From Candidatus Magnetominusculus sp. LBB02 (GTDB lineage Bacteria; Nitrospirota; Thermodesulfovibrionia; Thermodesulfovibrionales; Magnetobacteriaceae), in assembly GCA_022321325.1 (NCBI GenBank), contig JAKOEO010000022.1:1-39040 (forward strand): 39,040 bases of DNA. Reading direction: 5' to 3'. Position 1 is the stretch's first letter; each line of letters begins with the position of its first letter. Shown here piece after piece: positions 6,165-37,872 of this stretch. The notes beneath the pieces are model-generated. The model ran no database searches. It saw only the letters and a program-made list of their open reading frames with translations, and was not told where the DNA came from. The translations under genes were made by a program, and so were the position numbers.

Positions 6165-7489
6165 CACTGGTGTCCCGTTGTTGAATTGAGAATTTGCTAA
6201 AAACACAATAAAATCATGGTGATAGAGGATATAAAGACTGTAATCGACTTGAATTTTCCGTTATACTATGGTCAGCCAACAACGCAAGTTACAGGAGGAG
6301 AGACCAATGTATACAGGAAAGATGATATTTTCTCAACTAATGAGTTATATGCCGATGCATGAATTTAGGAAGTGTGTAAATCGTTACCAAGGTAATTACA
6401 AGGTTCAGACATTTTCATGTCTAAGCCAGTATTTGACTATGGCGTTTGCCCAGCTTACATATAGGGAAAGTTTGAGGGACATAGAAGCTTGTCTTCGCGT
6501 TCAACAAAATAAGCTATACCACATGGGTATTCAAGGTGACGTTTCTCGAAGTACTTTGGCAAGGGCAAATGAAAACCGTGATTGGCGTATATATGCAGAT
6601 TTTGCTCAAGTTCTGATACAAACAGCCAGAAAGCTATATGCAGACGAAGATTTAGGATTAGAATTGCAGGATACGATATATGCCCTTGACTCCACTACCA
6701 TAGATTTGTGTCTTTCTTTATTTCCTTGGGCTCGCTTTAGGAAACACAAAGGAGCTATAAAGTTGCATACTTTAATAGATTTGCGTGGCAGTATCCCATC
6801 CTTTATTAAAATTACAGATGGTAAAGTCCATGATGTAAACATATTGGATGAGTTAATACCAGAGCCAGGGTCTTATTATGTAATGGATCGTGGCTACCTC
6901 GACTTTGAGCGCCTTTATACCTTAAGTCAGAATTGTGCCTTCTTTGTAATTCGTTCTAAACGGAATACCAAATTTCGCAGGATTTACTCGCACTCAGTTG
7001 ATAAGTCCAGTGGATTGCAATGTGACCAAACGATTGTGCTTACAGGTGTCAACGCTGCAGACGATTACCCAGAAAAGCTCCGGCGCATAAAATACTTCGA
7101 TGCCCAACACAATAAAACTTTGGTATTTCTAACTAATAACTTCGCCCTTTCTGCTTTGATAATCGCTCAATTGTATAAATGCCGCTGGCAGGTGGAGTTA
7201 TTTTTCAAGTGGATAAAACAACACCTACGAATCAAAGCCTTTTACGGGACATCTGAAAATGCTGTAAAAACGCAAATATGGATAGCCATATCAGTCTATG
7301 TGCTTGTTGCCATCATCAAGAAACGCCTAAAGCTGGACATGAGCCTTTACACAATTCTACAGGTTTTGAGTTTATCATTATTCGAGAAAATACCGCTTTA
7401 TCAGGCACTTACAAAATTATACTACAAAGTTGAGGATAGTGTTTCATGGAAACAGTTGTCTTTATTCGATCTATAACGGGACAGCAGTG
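6165..7489 (+). mobile_element. Complete IS4-family insertion sequence, 1325 bp
   Basis: Bounded by terminal inverted repeats: left CACTGGTGTCCCGTT at 6165 and right, read inward, CACTGCTGTCCCGTT ending at 7489. They match at 14 of the first 15 positions and 17 of 20. Flanked by perfect 9-bp direct duplications. It carries one full-length transposase. Perfect duplications and intact ends point to a fairly recent insertion. It interrupts a minus-strand gene whose two halves lie on either side in the same frame. Confidence 0.93.
6307..7476 (+). CDS. IS4-family DDE transposase
   Basis: Catalyses cut-and-paste movement of the surrounding element. It has 389 residues from ATG 6307, which follows AGGAGGAGAG; a longer in-frame start at 6268 has no such site. 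The N-terminal region (MIFSQLMSYMP, FAQLTYRESLRDIEACL) is the DUF4372-type DNA-binding part of this IS4 subgroup. The catalytic DDE set is intact: Asp in ALDSTTID, Asp in YVMDRGYLDF, and Glu in the Y-(2)-R-(3)-E-(6)-K signature of YKCRWQVELFFKWIK. No frameshift or stop was seen, so the element may still be active. The stop lies 13 bases before the right inverted repeat ends. Confidence 0.95.
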   Translation: MYTGKMIFSQLMSYMPMHEFRKCVNRYQGNYKVQTFSCLSQYLTMAFAQLTYRESLRDIEACLRVQQNKLYHMGIQGDVSRSTLARANENRDWRIYADFAQVLIQTARKLYADEDLGLELQDTIYALDSTTIDLCLSLFPWARFRKHKGAIKLHTLIDLRGSIPSFIKITDGKVHDVNILDELIPEPGSYYVMDRGYLDFERLYTLSQNCAFFVIRSKRNTKFRRIYSHSVDKSSGLQCDQTIVLTGVNAADDYPEKLRRIKYFDAQHNKTLVFLTNNFALSALIIAQLYKCRWQVELFFKWIKQHLRIKAFYGTSENAVKTQIWIAISVYVLVAIIKKRLKLDMSLYTILQVLSLSLFEKIPLYQALTKLYYKVEDSVSWKQLSLFDL

Positions 7490-7498
7490 TCATCTTAT
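7490..7498. repeat. Right 9-bp target site duplication of the IS
   Basis: TCATCTTAT directly after the right inverted repeat, identical to 6156-6164. Deleting the IS and one copy joins the flanking half-genes in frame. Confidence 0.93.
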
Positions 7499-8363
7499 CT
7501 ATAAGAGGATTGATGTTATTTAATATGTTTTGTAAACATGTGTTTAAACCATTACCGAAACGTTCTGCCGCCAAAGAACAATCCTTCAGTTTACTGTGTG
7601 AATTAAAAAAACGGCTTACCTCGGAAGGATGACTATCAGTATTATTCTTTGGCTGATAAATATATGGGCAAAACTCTTTAAGCAATGCATAAATGAATGC
7701 AGCTCCAAATAGTTCATACCCTATGTTATCACATACATATTCAGTAATATATGATGCTACCCGCCTTCTTTGATTATATTTCTCTGAACCATGATCGAAC
7801 AAGCTGGGTGCACCAAATATTTGATATAGTTCTTCATCAACTGTACGATTAATGGCATTCATATTTTCCTTGAATGCTATATGTCCTACCTCATGGCCTA
7901 AAATAGATATAGAAGAAACATCATATCCGGCTACTAATGGAATAATAAATACATCTATCTTTACATTGTTATCATTAACAATGTCAGATATATAACTGGT
8001 AATATCAGGTATTACTCCATAATAACTACTATCTTGTGAATGAATAATAAGCACTTTTCTTTGTTCAAAACGAAGGTTACATCTTTCATAACACTCCTTC
8101 ACTAATGGCATAACCCACCATGAGGATTCATTTGGAAGAGCCATTATAAATATATCTATAATTTCCGATATGGTACGAAGTTTCTTTTTTATTGTTATTA
8201 AATCGATGTCGTCAGCGATGTTGTTCCTTTCAATCGTTAGATACGATTTAACCTTATTGCAAACGTCCATCACAAATGGCTGAGGGTCCTGTAAGATCAA
8301 GCCATCAATGATAGCAATTTCTGCATTGATAAACCCATCAGCGATTTCCTTGTAAATGTCCAT
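7490..8363 (-). pseudogene. N-terminal half of the IS-split gene: HExxH metallopeptidase-like domain
   Basis: Remaining 5' part of the interrupted gene. From ATG 8363 it encodes 291 native residues. The frame then runs into the IS and stops at 7422, adding about 22 foreign residues. Around residue 157 it carries LGHEVGHIAF, an HExxH zinc site, and about 47 residues later EYVCD. The pattern HExxH plus ExxxD is that of gluzincin/M48-like peptidases, so E208 is the likely third zinc ligand. No membrane segment or signal peptide is evident, so it would be cytoplasmic. A GTG at 8372 directly touches the upstream stop, but ATG 8363 has AGGTG at 6 to 7 bases and is preferred. The partner gene upstream is cotranscribed and probably translationally coupled. 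Confidence 0.82.
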
Positions 8364-8372
8364 TGATTGCAC

Positions 8373-10259: not shown

Positions 10260-10484
10260 AGGGCAAACGCATTAGAAAAATAAAGCTGAAATTACCTATG
10301 CAAGTACACCATCTTGGCCCAGTCAGTCATTCCGGCTTGTCCGGAATCTTCCCTAATCTTTCCTTCTGAGGGTTTTAAACGATGATTTTGCCTAACTCGG
10401 AGGCATAAGGACAGATTCCGGACAAGCCGGAATGACGACATTAAGAGAAAATTTATGGTGCAATTCTCTAATGCGTTTGCCCTA
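10260..10484. mobile_element. MITE-like element A, about 225 bp, with terminal and internal inverted repeats
   Basis: Non-coding element between the TPR gene and the MFS gene. The outer inverted repeat AGGGCAAACGCATTAGA is perfect over 17 bp (10260-10276 and 10467-10483). It is flanked by an 11-bp direct repeat GGCGCGCCGCC (10249-10259 and 10485-10495), which looks like a target duplication. Inside is a second perfect 24-bp inverted pair (10326-10349 and 10413-10436); each arm contains TTCCGG-CTTGT-CCGGAA and can fold by itself. No ORF of note. Related copies are at 35651-35725 and 37714-37872. Confidence 0.7.
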
Positions 10485-32442: not shown

Positions 32443-33819
32443 TCAATCTATCTGCACATAATACCTTATTATTATTACAAATAGCGCTAGTAACAATGAA
32501 AATATCAGATATGCCCCCAAAACCAGCTCAACCACGCGGCGCCGCCCTATGAGACCGCCCAACATGCTGCCGCCCGATAAGATAAACAGAAGCGGCATCA
32601 GCGGTATCACATAGCGAGGCTGCAGGCCGTCAATGTAGGGATTGCCAACCGGCGTCCAGATAAGATACTCTGACGTGGAAAACACAAAGACGCATGACAG
32701 GACTGCCGTGAGGATTATCGCCCGTCCCATTGCTGTAAGCCTGATAGCACCGGGGCTTCCTAATACCGCCGCCCCCGCTAATACGCCCACATAGGAGACC
32801 TGAAAAATCTCAGGCATATTCGTATCCAGCCAGCCCATCTTCCCCACAACCGTAAACCAGCCAAGCTGCAACTGCCGGACAATTGTCCTGATAAATGTCA
32901 GTACGTATGTGACAGGATGCCCCAAGACATAGCTTAACTGCCTCTGTGGCGATACATCAAGACCATGATTATATGCAACTACAAGATAGCCCACCTTTGA
33001 CGACCACCAGAGATTCAGCGTGAGATTCGTTATGAATAATATAGCAAAGGCCGCTATGTAGTGCCTTATCGAGGGAAAATAATGCTTTGGTATCAGAAAA
33101 AAGCATAATAACAGCGGGAAATACGCGTGTTTTGACATCGTCAGCGGTATGGAGATTATTAATATAGAAAGTAAACTTGCCATCAGACGTTCCTTGTCTG
33201 AGGCCGCCTTTAAAAGTACGGCGCTAAATAAAAAACATATGGCGTTTGTAAAGGCATCTGCCGACAGTGACGCCCCCTGAAACAGCGACAATGGCATCAG
33301 GGCAAGAAACACAAACAGCCATTTATAGGCGGGTACTGTCCTGACTGACAGATACATAAGCGCAATCCACACAAAGAGATTGGCAGCCCTGCCTACATAG
33401 ACCAGACCAAGCACCGTCAATCCCATATGCCGCCCCGCATAGATAGCCACGGCCTGCGGCACAAACGGCACGGGGCTATAGAGTACCGTGTAGTGAAAGT
33501 TGATAAACACCCTGCGGTGGCCGTCAATAGGGGTCTTAAACGCCTCGATTATCTCGCTGATTTGCTGTTTATTTTCAGGATGGCCGGGGATGTCCTTAGA
33601 GACTAATTGTGCCGTTTTTATAAGTGATTCGGGCAGCATACCTCCAACATCGCCCCCGCGCCTTTGCGCTAAGACCGTGCCCTCTGACAGTTGATATGAG
33701 CGGTAGAAGTGGTTTGTCTCATCAGGGGCCTCAAAAGGCGGCACTGCGGCAATAAACAAGACACCAAAGACAATGGCTAAGCATAGAAAGACCCTTTCAG
33801 GCCGCATTTCGGCATTCAC
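32443..33819 (-). CDS. DUF2142 polytopic membrane protein, probable lipid-linked-sugar glycosyltransferase
   Basis: A 458-residue membrane protein with about ten to twelve helices. The first outer loop has PPFEAPDETNHFYRSYQLSEG, the DUF2142 signature; its D-E-x-x-H resembles the acidic loop of GT-C enzymes. The family occurs in O-antigen and cell-surface polysaccharide clusters and is thought to transfer sugars from polyprenyl donors, though activity is rarely shown. Start is GTG 33819, overlapping the stop of the upstream paralogue (GTGA), or ATG 33807. It ends five bases before the UbiA gene, so all are in one transcript. Confidence 0.85.
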   Translation of the reverse strand: MNAEMRPERVFLCLAIVFGVLFIAAVPPFEAPDETNHFYRSYQLSEGTVLAQRRGGDVGGMLPESLIKTAQLVSKDIPGHPENKQQISEIIEAFKTPIDGHRRVFINFHYTVLYSPVPFVPQAVAIYAGRHMGLTVLGLVYVGRAANLFVWIALMYLSVRTVPAYKWLFVFLALMPLSLFQGASLSADAFTNAICFLFSAVLLKAASDKERLMASLLSILIISIPLTMSKHAYFPLLLCFFLIPKHYFPSIRHYIAAFAILFITNLTLNLWWSSKVGYLVVAYNHGLDVSPQRQLSYVLGHPVTYVLTFIRTIVRQLQLGWFTVVGKMGWLDTNMPEIFQVSYVGVLAGAAVLGSPGAIRLTAMGRAIILTAVLSCVFVFSTSEYLIWTPVGNPYIDGLQPRYVIPLMPLLFILSGGSMLGGLIGRRRVVELVLGAYLIFSLLLALFVIIIRYYVQID

Positions 33820-35609
33820 GGCTGCCGCCTCCGCTCCGTTGCGGTTTCAATGTTTTTAGAAATGATTTCAGCGATATTGCCTCTATTTGGCGCACGGCGC
33901 AGAGCCTCTTTGAAATTTGATACGGCCTCATCGCGCTGCCCCATTTCTTTGAGAATAAGGCCCTTTTGAAAATACAACTCCCAGATGTCGGGCGCAGCCG
34001 CAATGCCTTTGTCTATATAGCTAAGTGCGTCCTCATATCTTTTCAGCCCTATTAGCGACATACCTATGTACTTGTATATTAGAATATTGCGTGGGGCGAT
34101 TACCAATGCCTTTAGAAAAAACTCGCCCGCCACATCATAGTTTCTTTGCTTTAAGAATGAAATCCCAAGTTTAAGCACGGGCATCTCGCCCTCTTTGTCC
34201 CAGTATGGAAGGGATTTCTCGAAATAGGGTTCGGCCTCGGCCTTTAAACCCTTGATAGTCAGCGCGCTCCACATGTTGAAATTCAGGCCGGGATAATCCG
34301 GCATGACAGCCAGTGCCGTTTTAAACTCTTCTATCGCCTCGTCTGTCCTTCCTGTTGACAACAGATGCGTACCGTAGAGGTTATGAGCGAGGTAGTTATT
34401 TTCTGTCACCTCGATAGCATGTTTAAATAACGTGCCGGTGTCGTGCCAGTAAGCGGTCTGCTTGTATGTCAAAAACGACATGACAATAACTACGCAAATG
34501 CCGATGACCAATGCGATGGTTCTATATTTTCTAAACAAGTCATAAACGCCCCATGAGGCGGTTATAAAAAGTCCCACAAATGGAATGTACGCATAGCGGT
34601 CTGCCACAGGGGCCGCGCTGACCTGAACAAACTGAAGCACGGGTATAAGCGTTACGACAAACCATGCCCATCCGGCTAAGACATATGGACGGGACTTTCT
34701 TAACCAAACGGCAGCCGCCGTCAGAGCCGCAAGGGCAAGTAAAGACAGCGCAAGCGGCCACACCGAGCTTATCTCTTTATACGGGTAAAACACGCACAGA
34801 TTAACCGGCCAAACCGCCTTCCCCAAATATGTAACATAGGAAAGGGCGGCGCTTGCCAGACGAAACGCTATGGATGATTCATTGACGCCCGCAACCGCGT
34901 CATTTTTGGCCTGCCCATAAATCGTCAATATGCCGCTCAGAAGAGAAAGCGCAAAAAATGGCGTCTTCTCTATGATTAACGGCATCATTTTAGTTTTGTT
35001 TGTAACCCTGCCAAGCGGCCAAAAATCAAGAATAAGCATCACAATAGGCAAGGTTACGGCCATCGGCTTTGACATAAGCGCCAACATAAAACATAACATC
35101 ACAATAATATATCGTCCTGCCGCAGGCCCCCGCACGTAATGCACATAGGCGGAGGCGGTGATAAACCACCAGAGCGCACAGAGCACGCTTTTCCTCTCAG
35201 ATATCCACGCAACAGACTCCACATTTATAGGATGCACCGCAAAGGCCGCCGCCACAAATGCGCTCTGCCAGAGCTCCCCGGTTGCATATCGCAGGAATAG
35301 AAACAGCGCGGCAGCGGCCCCCATGTGAATTATGAGGCTGACAACATGAGGCCCACATGGATTAAGCCCAAATAACTCTATATCAGCCATATGCGAAACC
35401 CATGTAAGCGGGTGCCAGTAGGAGAAATAGGATGTCTTCAACGCCCACATGAGGCTGTCTATGGTGATGCCGCCCTGTATATTGTAGTTGTCTATGACAT
35501 ATTTATAGTCGTCATAGTTTACAAAGCCGCAGTCTTTAACTCTGAAATAAGCCGCGAACACGACAAGACAAAGGGCAAGGATAACGGGCATGTTCTTATT
35601 GGCGGTCAT
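33816..35609 (-). CDS. Tmtc-like membrane glycosyltransferase with C-terminal TPRs (copy 2)
   Basis: A 597-residue GT-C-type protein. The N-terminal part (about 1-380) has ten or more helices. The loop after helix 1 carries NYDDYKYVIDN (the acidic catalytic-type loop), then WHPLTWVSHMADIELFG and AVHPINVESVAWISERK. The C-terminal part (about 400-590) has four to five TPR units. This plan matches the TPR O-mannosyltransferase-like family; the bacterial substrate is unknown. I chose ATG 35609 (MTANKNMPVILAL). The longer frame to 35621 starts inside the adjacent MITE. Restoring the site before MITE insertion puts this ATG one base after the upstream stop. It is a paralogue of 35818-37629. Confidence 0.88.
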   Translation of the reverse strand: MTANKNMPVILALCLVVFAAYFRVKDCGFVNYDDYKYVIDNYNIQGGITIDSLMWALKTSYFSYWHPLTWVSHMADIELFGLNPCGPHVVSLIIHMGAAAALFLFLRYATGELWQSAFVAAAFAVHPINVESVAWISERKSVLCALWWFITASAYVHYVRGPAAGRYIIVMLCFMLALMSKPMAVTLPIVMLILDFWPLGRVTNKTKMMPLIIEKTPFFALSLLSGILTIYGQAKNDAVAGVNESSIAFRLASAALSYVTYLGKAVWPVNLCVFYPYKEISSVWPLALSLLALAALTAAAVWLRKSRPYVLAGWAWFVVTLIPVLQFVQVSAAPVADRYAYIPFVGLFITASWGVYDLFRKYRTIALVIGICVVIVMSFLTYKQTAYWHDTGTLFKHAIEVTENNYLAHNLYGTHLLSTGRTDEAIEEFKTALAVMPDYPGLNFNMWSALTIKGLKAEAEPYFEKSLPYWDKEGEMPVLKLGISFLKQRNYDVAGEFFLKALVIAPRNILIYKYIGMSLIGLKRYEDALSYIDKGIAAAPDIWELYFQKGLILKEMGQRDEAVSNFKEALRRAPNRGNIAEIISKNIETATERRRQP

Positions 35610-35818
35610 ACCAAGTTGCAACCATAGAGGTAGAGATATTTGAAAATTCTGTCATTCCGGCTTGTCCGGAATCTGTCTATGCACATCATCCAGCCAAAAA
35701 AAGATTCCGGACAAGCCGGAATGACAGAAATGGGGCCGGAATGACGACAGGACAAGGCATGTGAAGACGAGGTTTTGGGTGTGAGAGATAATCTACTTAT
35801 ATGGATGCAACTTGGTAT
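35608..35818. mobile_element. MITE-like element B, 211 bp, between the two glycosyltransferase paralogues
   Basis: Terminal inverted repeats of 19 bp, 18 matching: 35608-35626 begins ATACCAAGTTGCA and 35800-35818 is its complement. The terminal TA dinucleotides fit a TA target duplication of the IS630/Tc1-mariner kind. Inside is the same perfect 24-bp inverted pair as in element A (35651-35674 and 35702-35725), plus a third partial copy of the half-site around 35732-35743. No ORF. Its two ends overlap the stop codon of the upstream gene and the start codon of the downstream gene. Confidence 0.72.
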
Positions 35819-37629
35819 CACCTATCACCTCGCGCTGAGTCTAAAATGGCCAGTTTGCCCTTAGCCGGTTCATAGTTTGGATTAAGGGCAAGTGTTTCTC
35901 TGAATGCGGAGGCGGCCTCAGAGACCCTTCCTAAGGCCAACAACGCAAGGCCCTTGTTAAATACTATCTCCCACATGCGGGAGTTTATGGCAAGGCCGCC
36001 GTTGAAATACGAAAGCGCCTCCTCGTTCTTCCCTATTGACATGAGGGCAAGCCCCATGTAGTTTATCGTATCAAGTTCTTTTGGGGCAATCTCAAGGGAT
36101 TTCCTGAAATATAATATGGCCTCTTCATAGCGTTTCTCTTTCATGTAATCAATGGCAAGGAGTTTATACAGATGAGGCTGCCTGCCCTCTTTCCAGTATG
36201 GCAGCGACTTGGCATAGAATTTCCTTGCCTCGTCGTTCCTGCCCAGATATGTCAGCGTACTCCATGCGTTGAAATTAAGAAGCGGGTCATCGGGCATCAC
36301 CTCAAGCCCATCGTAAAACTCTTTGAGCGCCTCATCGAATCTGTTTTGCTTTAGCAGGTGGACGCCGTAACTGTTGTGGGCAGCGTAGTTGCTTTGTGTA
36401 ACATCGAGGGCGTGTTTGAATAGCGTGCCGGAGTCTCTCCAGTAACCAACCTGCCTCCACGTAAAGGCGCTGAAAATAGCGGTAATCAAAATAGCGGTTG
36501 AGATAAACAGTGTATTAGAGCGGCGGCACCCCCTCTCTAATACATCCCACAACCCCCATGAGCACATAGTAAATATCCCAATCAACGGCACATAGGCATA
36601 GCGGTCAGCCATAGGGGCAAGCCCGACCTGAACGATTTGAATCACCGGCGCCATAGTCCCCATGTACCAGAACCAGCCCACAATAAGATAAGGACGGTTC
36701 TTTCTCATAACAAAGGCGGCAGTCGTGATGGAAATCAAAAGCAGGGCTGAAGCGGCGGCAGGCCAAAGTGATTTAATAGGGCGATAGGGATAGAAAACGG
36801 CCAAATCGGTGGGTGCGGCCATTTTGCCGATGTATGAGACATAGGAGGTGAGGGCGCTAAGTATTCTGGTCTTAAGAGGAAGCTGTTCAAAGCCGGCAAT
36901 TGAGTCACGCTGTGCGTATAGTGTGATAAAGATAAACAGGGCGGCAAAGAAAAAAAACGGGAGTTTTTCAACTACCAGCCGCTTGACGTCAGCCCTTGAT
37001 GTGAGCCGCCTCAACGGCCAATAGTCCAGCAGCAGGAGCGTAAAGGGAAAGGTGACCAGCATGGATTTAGACATTAGCCCTAGGATGAGCAGCACAAGCG
37101 CTGCCGCATAATACGCCCTCAAAGGCCGCCCCAAGGTATTCCGCCTTGCATATGCGGCATAGGCGCACAGGGCGGCAATCCAGAAAAATGTTGACAGTAC
37201 GTTCTTCCTGTCAGAGACCCATGCAACCGACTCCACATTCAAAGGATGCACTGCAAAGACTGCGGCCACAAAGGCGCTGCTTAGCGTATTTCGAGTCGTG
37301 AAATATAGAAACAGGAATAACATCACAACACTAAAAGTGTGGATAATAACGCTGGTCATATGCGCCCCGGCGGCGTTTGTCCCATAGAGTTCCACATCGA
37401 GCATATAGGAAGCCCACGTAAGCGGAATCCAGTTTGAGTCATACGTGTGTGTAAATGCCCACGCAATCCCCTTCCACGTCAGCCCTTCCATCACATGGTA
37501 GTTTTCCAACACCTCCACGCCGTCGTCATAGCTGACAAAGCCATTGTTAAGAACTGGCAGATAAACAAGGCAGGACAGCGCCGCAAGCAGTAGGCAGATT
37601 AATATTATATGGCTGCGTTTATAGTTCAT
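35818..37629 (-). CDS. Tmtc-like membrane glycosyltransferase with C-terminal TPRs (copy 1)
   Basis: A GT-C-type protein of 603 residues from ATG 37629 (MNYKRSHIILICLLL). An ATG at 37680 would add 17 residues; neither has a clear ribosome site, so the start is uncertain. Helix 1 is followed by SYDDGVEVLENYHV (acidic loop), then WIPLTWASYMLDVELYG and AVHPLNVESVAWVSDRK, in the same order as the paralogue. The C-terminal part has four to five TPRs (for example YEEAILYFRKSLEIAPKELD). It probably adds a sugar from a polyprenyl donor outside the membrane, with the TPRs holding the acceptor or a partner. It is the first gene of the cluster. Confidence 0.86.
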   Translation of the reverse strand: MNYKRSHIILICLLLAALSCLVYLPVLNNGFVSYDDGVEVLENYHVMEGLTWKGIAWAFTHTYDSNWIPLTWASYMLDVELYGTNAAGAHMTSVIIHTFSVVMLFLFLYFTTRNTLSSAFVAAVFAVHPLNVESVAWVSDRKNVLSTFFWIAALCAYAAYARRNTLGRPLRAYYAAALVLLILGLMSKSMLVTFPFTLLLLDYWPLRRLTSRADVKRLVVEKLPFFFFAALFIFITLYAQRDSIAGFEQLPLKTRILSALTSYVSYIGKMAAPTDLAVFYPYRPIKSLWPAAASALLLISITTAAFVMRKNRPYLIVGWFWYMGTMAPVIQIVQVGLAPMADRYAYVPLIGIFTMCSWGLWDVLERGCRRSNTLFISTAILITAIFSAFTWRQVGYWRDSGTLFKHALDVTQSNYAAHNSYGVHLLKQNRFDEALKEFYDGLEVMPDDPLLNFNAWSTLTYLGRNDEARKFYAKSLPYWKEGRQPHLYKLLAIDYMKEKRYEEAILYFRKSLEIAPKELDTINYMGLALMSIGKNEEALSYFNGGLAINSRMWEIVFNKGLALLALGRVSEAASAFRETLALNPNYEPAKGKLAILDSARGDR

Positions 37630-37713
37630 AATAACATTGTAAAGGCCGTCAAGCGGCTTATAATAACATAATTCCGCCATTTGATGGGTGTTATCGCTGG
37701 ATGATAAAGCAGT

Positions 37714-37872
37714 GAACGCATTAGAAATTAGATAGAAATTGCCTATGCAATCTTTCTGGCTTTTCCCTCTGCGTCATTCCGGCTCGTCCGGAATCTTCCT
37801 TTGATTGGTTGTTTCATGATGATTTTGCATATCCTGAGGCATAAGGACAGATTCCGGACAAGCCGGAATGAC
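37714..37872. repeat. Degraded copy C of the MITE A-type repeat
   Basis: It starts GAACGCATTAGA like element A and then shares the GAAATT(A/G)CCTATGCAA segment. It has the internal 24-bp inverted pair (37773-37796 with one substitution, and 37849-37872) and the GATGATTTTGC and GAGGCATAAGGACAG segments of copy A in the same order. The far terminal repeat is not visible, so it is truncated. It lies in the non-coding gap upstream of the glycosylation cluster. Confidence 0.65.

Follow-up and report, generated by a model that had tools for sequence, protein, structure and literature searches.

A non-autonomous, MITE-like transposon of 209 bp has very probably entered a GTGA overlap between the stop codon of one gene and the start codon of the next, duplicated the TGA on which it landed and regenerated a start at the same codon. 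It probably changes the expression of the second gene, and it would have been moved by an insertion sequence (IS) with an IS630-like transposase. The element lies in what we call the window, the whole 39,040-nucleotide stretch of DNA that was analyzed, between two genes of a minus-strand run. The features on which the argument turns are the following.

35818 to 37680, minus strand: upstream gene, 620 amino acids with C-terminal TPR repeats, stop codon TGA at 35820-35818
33816 to 35609, minus strand: downstream paralog, 597 amino acids counted from the ATG at 35609, C-terminal TPR repeats
33816 to 33819, minus strand: GTGA in which the stop of the downstream paralog overlaps the start of the DUF2142 gene that follows it in the run
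35609 to 35817, minus strand: MITE-like element, TACCAAG...CTTGGTA, 209 bp
35609 to 35632, plus strand: terminal inverted repeat TACCAAGTTGCAACCATAGAGGTA, 24 bp
35794 to 35817, minus strand: terminal inverted repeat TACCAAGTTGCATCCATATAAGTA, 24 bp
35647 to 35729, no strand assigned: inner hairpin, arms 35647-35681 and 35695-35729 of 35 nt each, 91% complementary
35606 to 35608, no strand assigned: one TCA of the target-site duplication, read as TGA on the gene strand; its T and G are bases 2 and 3 of the new ATG
35818 to 35820, no strand assigned: the other TCA of the target-site duplication, likewise TGA on the gene strand, where it serves as the upstream gene's stop codon

The proteins encoded by the pair are 47% identical. 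They had been described as paralogous glycosyltransferases; paralogs they are, and the enzymatic label is not borne out, as Pfam and NCBIfam matches in both are limited to the C-terminal TPR repeats. We take their membrane part to be GT-C/TMTC-like. Further downstream on the same strand are genes for DUF2142, UbiA and glycosyl transferase group 1 proteins. Elsewhere in the window a transposase-like open reading frame (6268-7476), presumably of IS4 type, overlaps at its 3' end a convergent frame (7422-8372).

The element is MITE-like: it is short, bounded by terminal inverted repeats, multi-copy and flanked by a target-site duplication, and it is non-coding, with no open reading frame of at least 80 amino acids inside its 209 bp in the program-made list. 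Its RNA has a predicted folding energy of -99 kcal/mol, and none of 200 shuffled sequences was equally stable. No Rfam family matched anywhere in the window, and a promoter scan found no outward promoter in the element. That such an element should sit exactly at the tight junction of these tandem genes was the original prediction, and it is borne out by the inverted repeats and by a 241-bp query that matched 104 stretches of the window's own genome, some of them in the inner palindrome only. Its ends do meet the stop and the start, as proposed; its extent, given earlier as 35608-35818, we correct to 35609-35817.

A pattern built from the 24-base ends matches 49 times in this genome (G000), against none for the reversed control pattern, and the family's ends occur in six of the seven genomes of the genus, abundantly in G000 and G005. 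Exact matches among named genomes came to six stretches, all in Nitrospirae MAGs (nDJH13bin15, nDJH8bin6 and nDJH14bin7), in a search from which the window's own record was possibly excluded. The copy in the window appears to belong to a subfamily older than a recent burst of 181-bp copies, since its nearest aligned relative, C76, is 93.1% identical to it (other comparable copies, 83.4-90.4%), whereas the 181-bp copies C121, C61 and C16 are identical to one another in the alignment. Contigs end within about 60 bases of element ends at C118 (both ends), C54, C72, C13 and C116 of G000; these repeats therefore interrupt the assembly, and some copies escape it. Two further pairs of the inverted core CATTCCGGC..GTCCGGAAT occur in the window, at 10328-10434 and 37775-37870. 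The second pair lies 5' of the upstream gene, ends near a degenerate CATTGCAACTTCTTATG and may be a degraded copy of the 209-bp element. A second repeat family (L018, L019, L021, L022 and L024) carries the same inner palindrome between different ends, with a recurrent ATAGTGCGTTTGCC or ATAGTGCGTTCGCC, which suggests mosaic elements with exchangeable cores.

As the flanks of its copies show, the family duplicates three base pairs, TNA, when it inserts. Immediately outside ACCAAG the ends read T-N-A-T: across 54 ends, T stands at position -4 in 50 and A at position -2 in 53, and the base between them varies freely. Were TA the duplicated sequence, N would be independent on the two sides of a copy. 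It is not, which points to duplication of TNA. Identical direct-repeat triplets flank 17 of the 21 two-ended copies that have no more than one end mismatch (12 in G000, five in other genomes of the genus); the four that differ are L007, L009, L126 and L132, and L007 resembles the loss of one base. Under a looser pairing of ends, 29 of 40 pairs have TNA on both sides and 18 of those 29 match, where 0.28 per pair is expected (p 1.4e-4), with some of the 11 unequal pairs being chance pairings.

An empty site tells the same story. In G003 a sister copy of 151 bp (L121:1374-1524), with the same ends and a different inner palindrome, sits between two membrane-complex genes, in the stop codon of the first; this host gene is Oxidored_q2-like (under the curated cut-off), and the gene directly after it is Proton_antipo_M. 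The occupied site reads CTGAGGGAGGATAACTGA, then the 151-bp element, then TGACACTGTGGG; the empty site in G004, whose ortholog of the host gene encodes a protein 100% identical to that of G003, reads CTGAGGGAGGATAACTGACACTGTGGG. The sister copy is absent from that site in all six other genomes of the genus. Because the G004 site has TGA once and no TA, TGA was the duplicated sequence and the terminal TA belongs to the element. Something similar is seen where a candidate partner IS on contig C62 interrupts another IS630-like gene: the uninterrupted paralog reads GGCAGTCAGTCC and the interrupted gene GGCAGTCA followed by TACC, a comparison that is one-sided, the right flank being rearranged. The end of the IS abuts TCA there, and the uninterrupted paralog has no TA at the site, so TA did not come from the target.

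These are the observations that the original prediction has to face. Read as an IS630-type MITE, the element would have duplicated TA, as that prediction held, between genes formerly one base apart (TGA-T-ATG). Most copies do have TA at either end, the candidate transposase resembles those of IS630, and ISY100, of the IS630 group, inserts almost exclusively at TA and duplicates it according to the available text of its description (PMC2170065); the TA model also leaves a spacer of 19 nt, nearly matching the 20 nt seen in G003 and G004. Set against the single TGA at the sister copy's empty site, the 17 matching triplets and the paralog without TA, we consider TA duplication extremely unlikely. 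The one-base gap goes with it, for excision of the element with one TCA yields a GTGA overlap, and the empty TGATATG junction sought in relatives is seen in none of the three junctions that could be read.

For the junction itself, three more features are needed.

35607 to 35609, minus strand: new ATG start of the downstream gene, made of the A at the element's end and the TG of the duplicated TGA
35589 to 35591, minus strand: inner in-frame ATG at which the downstream gene could alternatively start; G003, G004 and G006 share it
35828 to 35831, minus strand: Shine-Dalgarno-like GAGG near the 3' end of the upstream gene, separated by 6 nt from the rebuilt GTG

TCA flanks the element on both sides (35606-35608 and 35818-35820) as a direct repeat. 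With the element and one TCA removed, the gene strand reads AGGTGACC (a longer rebuilt stretch is GCGCGAGGTGATAGGTGACCGCCAATAAGAACATGCCC), which on our reconstruction is a GTGA stop/start overlap, in frame. The rebuilt downstream frame is TAG GTG ACC GCC AAT AAG AAC ATG CCC and the upstream gene ends in AGG TGA. An in-frame TAG stands right before GTG, so translation of the rebuilt allele began either at GTG or at the inner ATG.

We propose that the non-autonomous, TNA-duplicating element entered the TGA triplet of this overlap between two paralogous operon genes at a time when the upstream ...AGG TGA and the downstream GTG ACC GCC would have shared the same bases. One copy of TGA would have stayed behind as the upstream stop codon. 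The other would now be preceded by the element's terminal A in place of the old G, giving ATG ACC GCC; the start would thus have been regenerated at the same codon, GTG becoming ATG, with neither protein altered. The ATG at 35609 is thereby still a plausible present start. It is no ancestral one, since it replaces GTG at the same codon, and the original prediction, in treating it as such, mistook what the insertion made for what had been there before. Predicted pairing with the anti-Shine-Dalgarno sequence is strongest for the rebuilt GTG with its GAGG, at -7.2 kcal/mol, the values for the ATG at 35609, the inner ATG at 35591 and a TTG at 35621 being -2.2, -2.8 and -0.9 kcal/mol. In a near-identical strain the TNA model predicts the empty junction AGGTGACCGCC; the contrary junction would be AGGTGATATGACC.

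The orthologous junction could be read in three of the six other genomes of the genus (G003, G004 and G006), at 68-69% protein identity; G001 and G002 were left out since their contigs end inside the upstream gene, and G005 since its best match is a 49% paralog. The element is absent from the junction in all three. In G003 and G004 the stop is TGA and a conserved ATGCCG follows after 20 nt; an in-frame TTG overlaps that stop (TTGA). G006 has TAG, then 10 nt to ATGCCG, with an in-frame ATG overlapping the TAG by 11 nt. From stop to conserved ATG the spacers are therefore 20, 20 and 10 nt, against 14 nt in the rebuilt allele, and by this comparison the tightness of the junction seems conserved among relatives and its exact spacing does not. 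We know of no near-identical empty allele of the window site, the relatives being only about 68-69% identical in protein.

The GTG start belongs to the reconstructed part of our account, and the inner ATG at 35591, 14 nt past the TGA, could always have been the start. The genes would then have been parted by a short spacer, and the new ATG at 35609 would be incidental or would add six residues. G003, G004 and G006 all keep this ATG but not the residues preceding it. We think the idea unlikely all the same: GAGG lies 24 nt from the inner ATG and 6 nt from the GTG, each of the three relatives has an in-frame start that overlaps the stop, and the next pair in the gene run is also joined by GTGA. 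The original prediction had named a longer spacer in relatives as evidence against itself, and the spacer is indeed longer if the conserved inner ATG is the start; if relatives use their stop-overlapping starts, coupling before the insertion was stronger than that prediction held.

What would an insertion into a GTGA overlap do to the second gene? GAGG is now 218 nt from the ATG at 35609. The insertion would uncouple translation of the second gene, with its ribosome-binding-like GAGG left behind upstream. In the predicted fold of the empty allele GAGG is paired (unpaired 0.01), as might be expected of a site that the upstream ribosome opens. The element is also the new leader of the downstream gene, and the earlier suggestion that its hairpin could affect transcription is upheld by the stability of the fold (z -8.98) and by one further feature.

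35696 to 35722, minus strand: terminator-like site, a 7-bp stem (35722-35704), a C and then seven T (35702-35696)

On the sense strand its stem is ATTCCGG/CCGGAAT. Three terminator-like sites fall in a 601-bp region, against 0.5 in shuffles, and this one has the longest run of T; the seven T are found in the window copy alone of 12 comparable copies, the other 11 having TTCTT and then T or C. Through termination at the stem and its seven T, or through double-strand cleavage, the hairpin would lower or change expression of the second and later genes. The element thus probably disturbs the switching-on of the second gene, and we infer that expression of this gene and those after it is reduced or altered.

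Two other outcomes deserve a hearing. In the first, the insertion is silent, the transcript reading through and the second gene being translated, uncoupled, from the ATG at 35609 or at 35591. Both genes are still intact and the family is many-copied in the genome; the terminator-like site with its seven T, the very stable fold and the want of a Shine-Dalgarno sequence before the present starts make us doubt it. In the second, the folded element would be translationally transparent, its terminal stem holding GAGG and the new ATG together at its base as a split ribosome-binding site, so that ribosomes finishing the first gene would go on to start the second across 209 bases. In the predicted fold of the occupied allele the stem joins the two sides and the flanking helices persist around it, but GAGG and ATG are unpaired to only 0.41 and 0.34 on average. 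The likeness is to genes 38 and 25 of phage T4, where a hairpin stands between the Shine-Dalgarno sequence and the AUG; in the available text of that work (PMC3014915) 22-27 nt are bridged and the effect was tested, whereas in the window the 218 nt and the bridge are predicted and the AUG lies in the base of the stem. Transparency strikes us as very improbable. If true, TNA-duplicating, TA-ended elements could enter XTGA overlaps without a change of protein or full loss of coupling.

The candidate for moving the element is the C62 IS mentioned above. It is 1134 bp long (G000:C62:2336-3469), with inverted ends TACCAAGTAGCAATCATACAGGTA and TACTAAGTTGCTATCTGATAGGTA that show one mismatch at one end and four at the other when set against the IUPAC pattern for MITE ends. 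It encodes HTH_33/HTH_Tnp_Tc3_2 and DDE_3 parts in separate frames (PF13358, PF13592 and PF01498). The C62 copies are frameshifted, one shift lying at a run of eight A and a second breaking the frame. The outer triplets at other IS ends are mostly TNA; the sole other two-ended copy (G014) has unequal ones, TAA and TCA. A full, intact copy with both flanks was not found. Queried with the transposase, six of 395 sampled genomes of the phylum gave matches, all of the same family; the transposase search of the genome itself used DDE_3 only. With ends so nearly identical, we infer that the element moved in trans by means of such an IS, which would be the autonomous partner.

By its DDE_3 and HTH domains the partner resembles the IS630/Tc1-mariner group. 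The MITE family differs from ISY100 in duplicating TNA where ISY100 duplicates TA (PMC2170065, available text), and this, in the company of an IS630-like transposase, is the unusual point. We have accordingly not filed the element as an IS630-type TA element. TNA duplication occurs in parts of IS5. A partial precedent within the IS630/Tc1-mariner group comes from the eukaryotic Fot elements of the pogo type, which show TAA duplications in the available text of PMC7386202. L098:1-9000 consists of head-to-tail units of 2034 bp with one IS630-like element inside another IS630-like gene, either a true amplification or an effect of assembly. In two different IS630-like transposase genes there, the frame changes at a TTTAAAAAAAATTC run common to both, perhaps by programmed frameshifting. 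The genes next to the nested elements are presumably IS66-like.

Stop codons do not appear to be specially sought out. In five insertions the triplet coincides exactly with the stop codon of an open frame at least 160 codons long, among 94 listed TNA-flanked ends that count both ends of an insertion and take in some chance matches: the one in the window, one at a C77 phosphoglucomutase, G003:C88, G005:C130 (no Pfam match) and G008:C34 (gyrase-A-like, an IS). About 8% would be expected without targeting, stop codons making up 26 of the 324 permissive TNA sites in the window (298 intergenic plus the 26 stops) on a gene list hand-chosen from the open reading frames. Four pairs of same-strand neighbors in the window have a four-base overlap (GTGA or ATGA), and with a few dozen insertions, no targeting has to be assumed for one of them to hit such an overlap. 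The insertion is unusual for its clean outcome and not for how often such hits occur.

Known systems come close in parts. The Chunjie MITE of Geobacter uraniireducens, 235 bp long, is inserted in a phosphate uptake operon and is likewise a MITE within an operon with many copies of variable length; the available text (PMC10969869) mentions no stop/start overlap or regenerated start, and the likeness is one of description, not of ends or duplication. Copies of QMITE1 in Coxiella overlap the last bases of genes, one by 3 bp; the available text (PMC5896051) describes no overlapped start, and here too the likeness is by description rather than by ends or duplication. Our search, within one open library of papers, found no MITE in a stop/start overlap of operon genes (one unrelated review), nothing on an IS630 family with a 3-bp target-site duplication, and a single unrelated paper on MITEs in Nitrospirae.

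The junction thus offers a base-level route by which a transposon could separate overlapping operon genes and leave both proteins unchanged. The target triplet would be the stop codon itself, its duplicate would become most of a start codon, and the element would add the missing A, so that an XTGA overlap hit by a TNA-duplicating, TA-ended element becomes XTGA plus ATG(A). The logic extends to ATGA, GTGA and TTGA overlaps alike, which makes it a concrete prediction for genome surveys. It also indicates that Nitrospirae harbor an IS630-like lineage with elements that, it seems, duplicate TNA and not TA.
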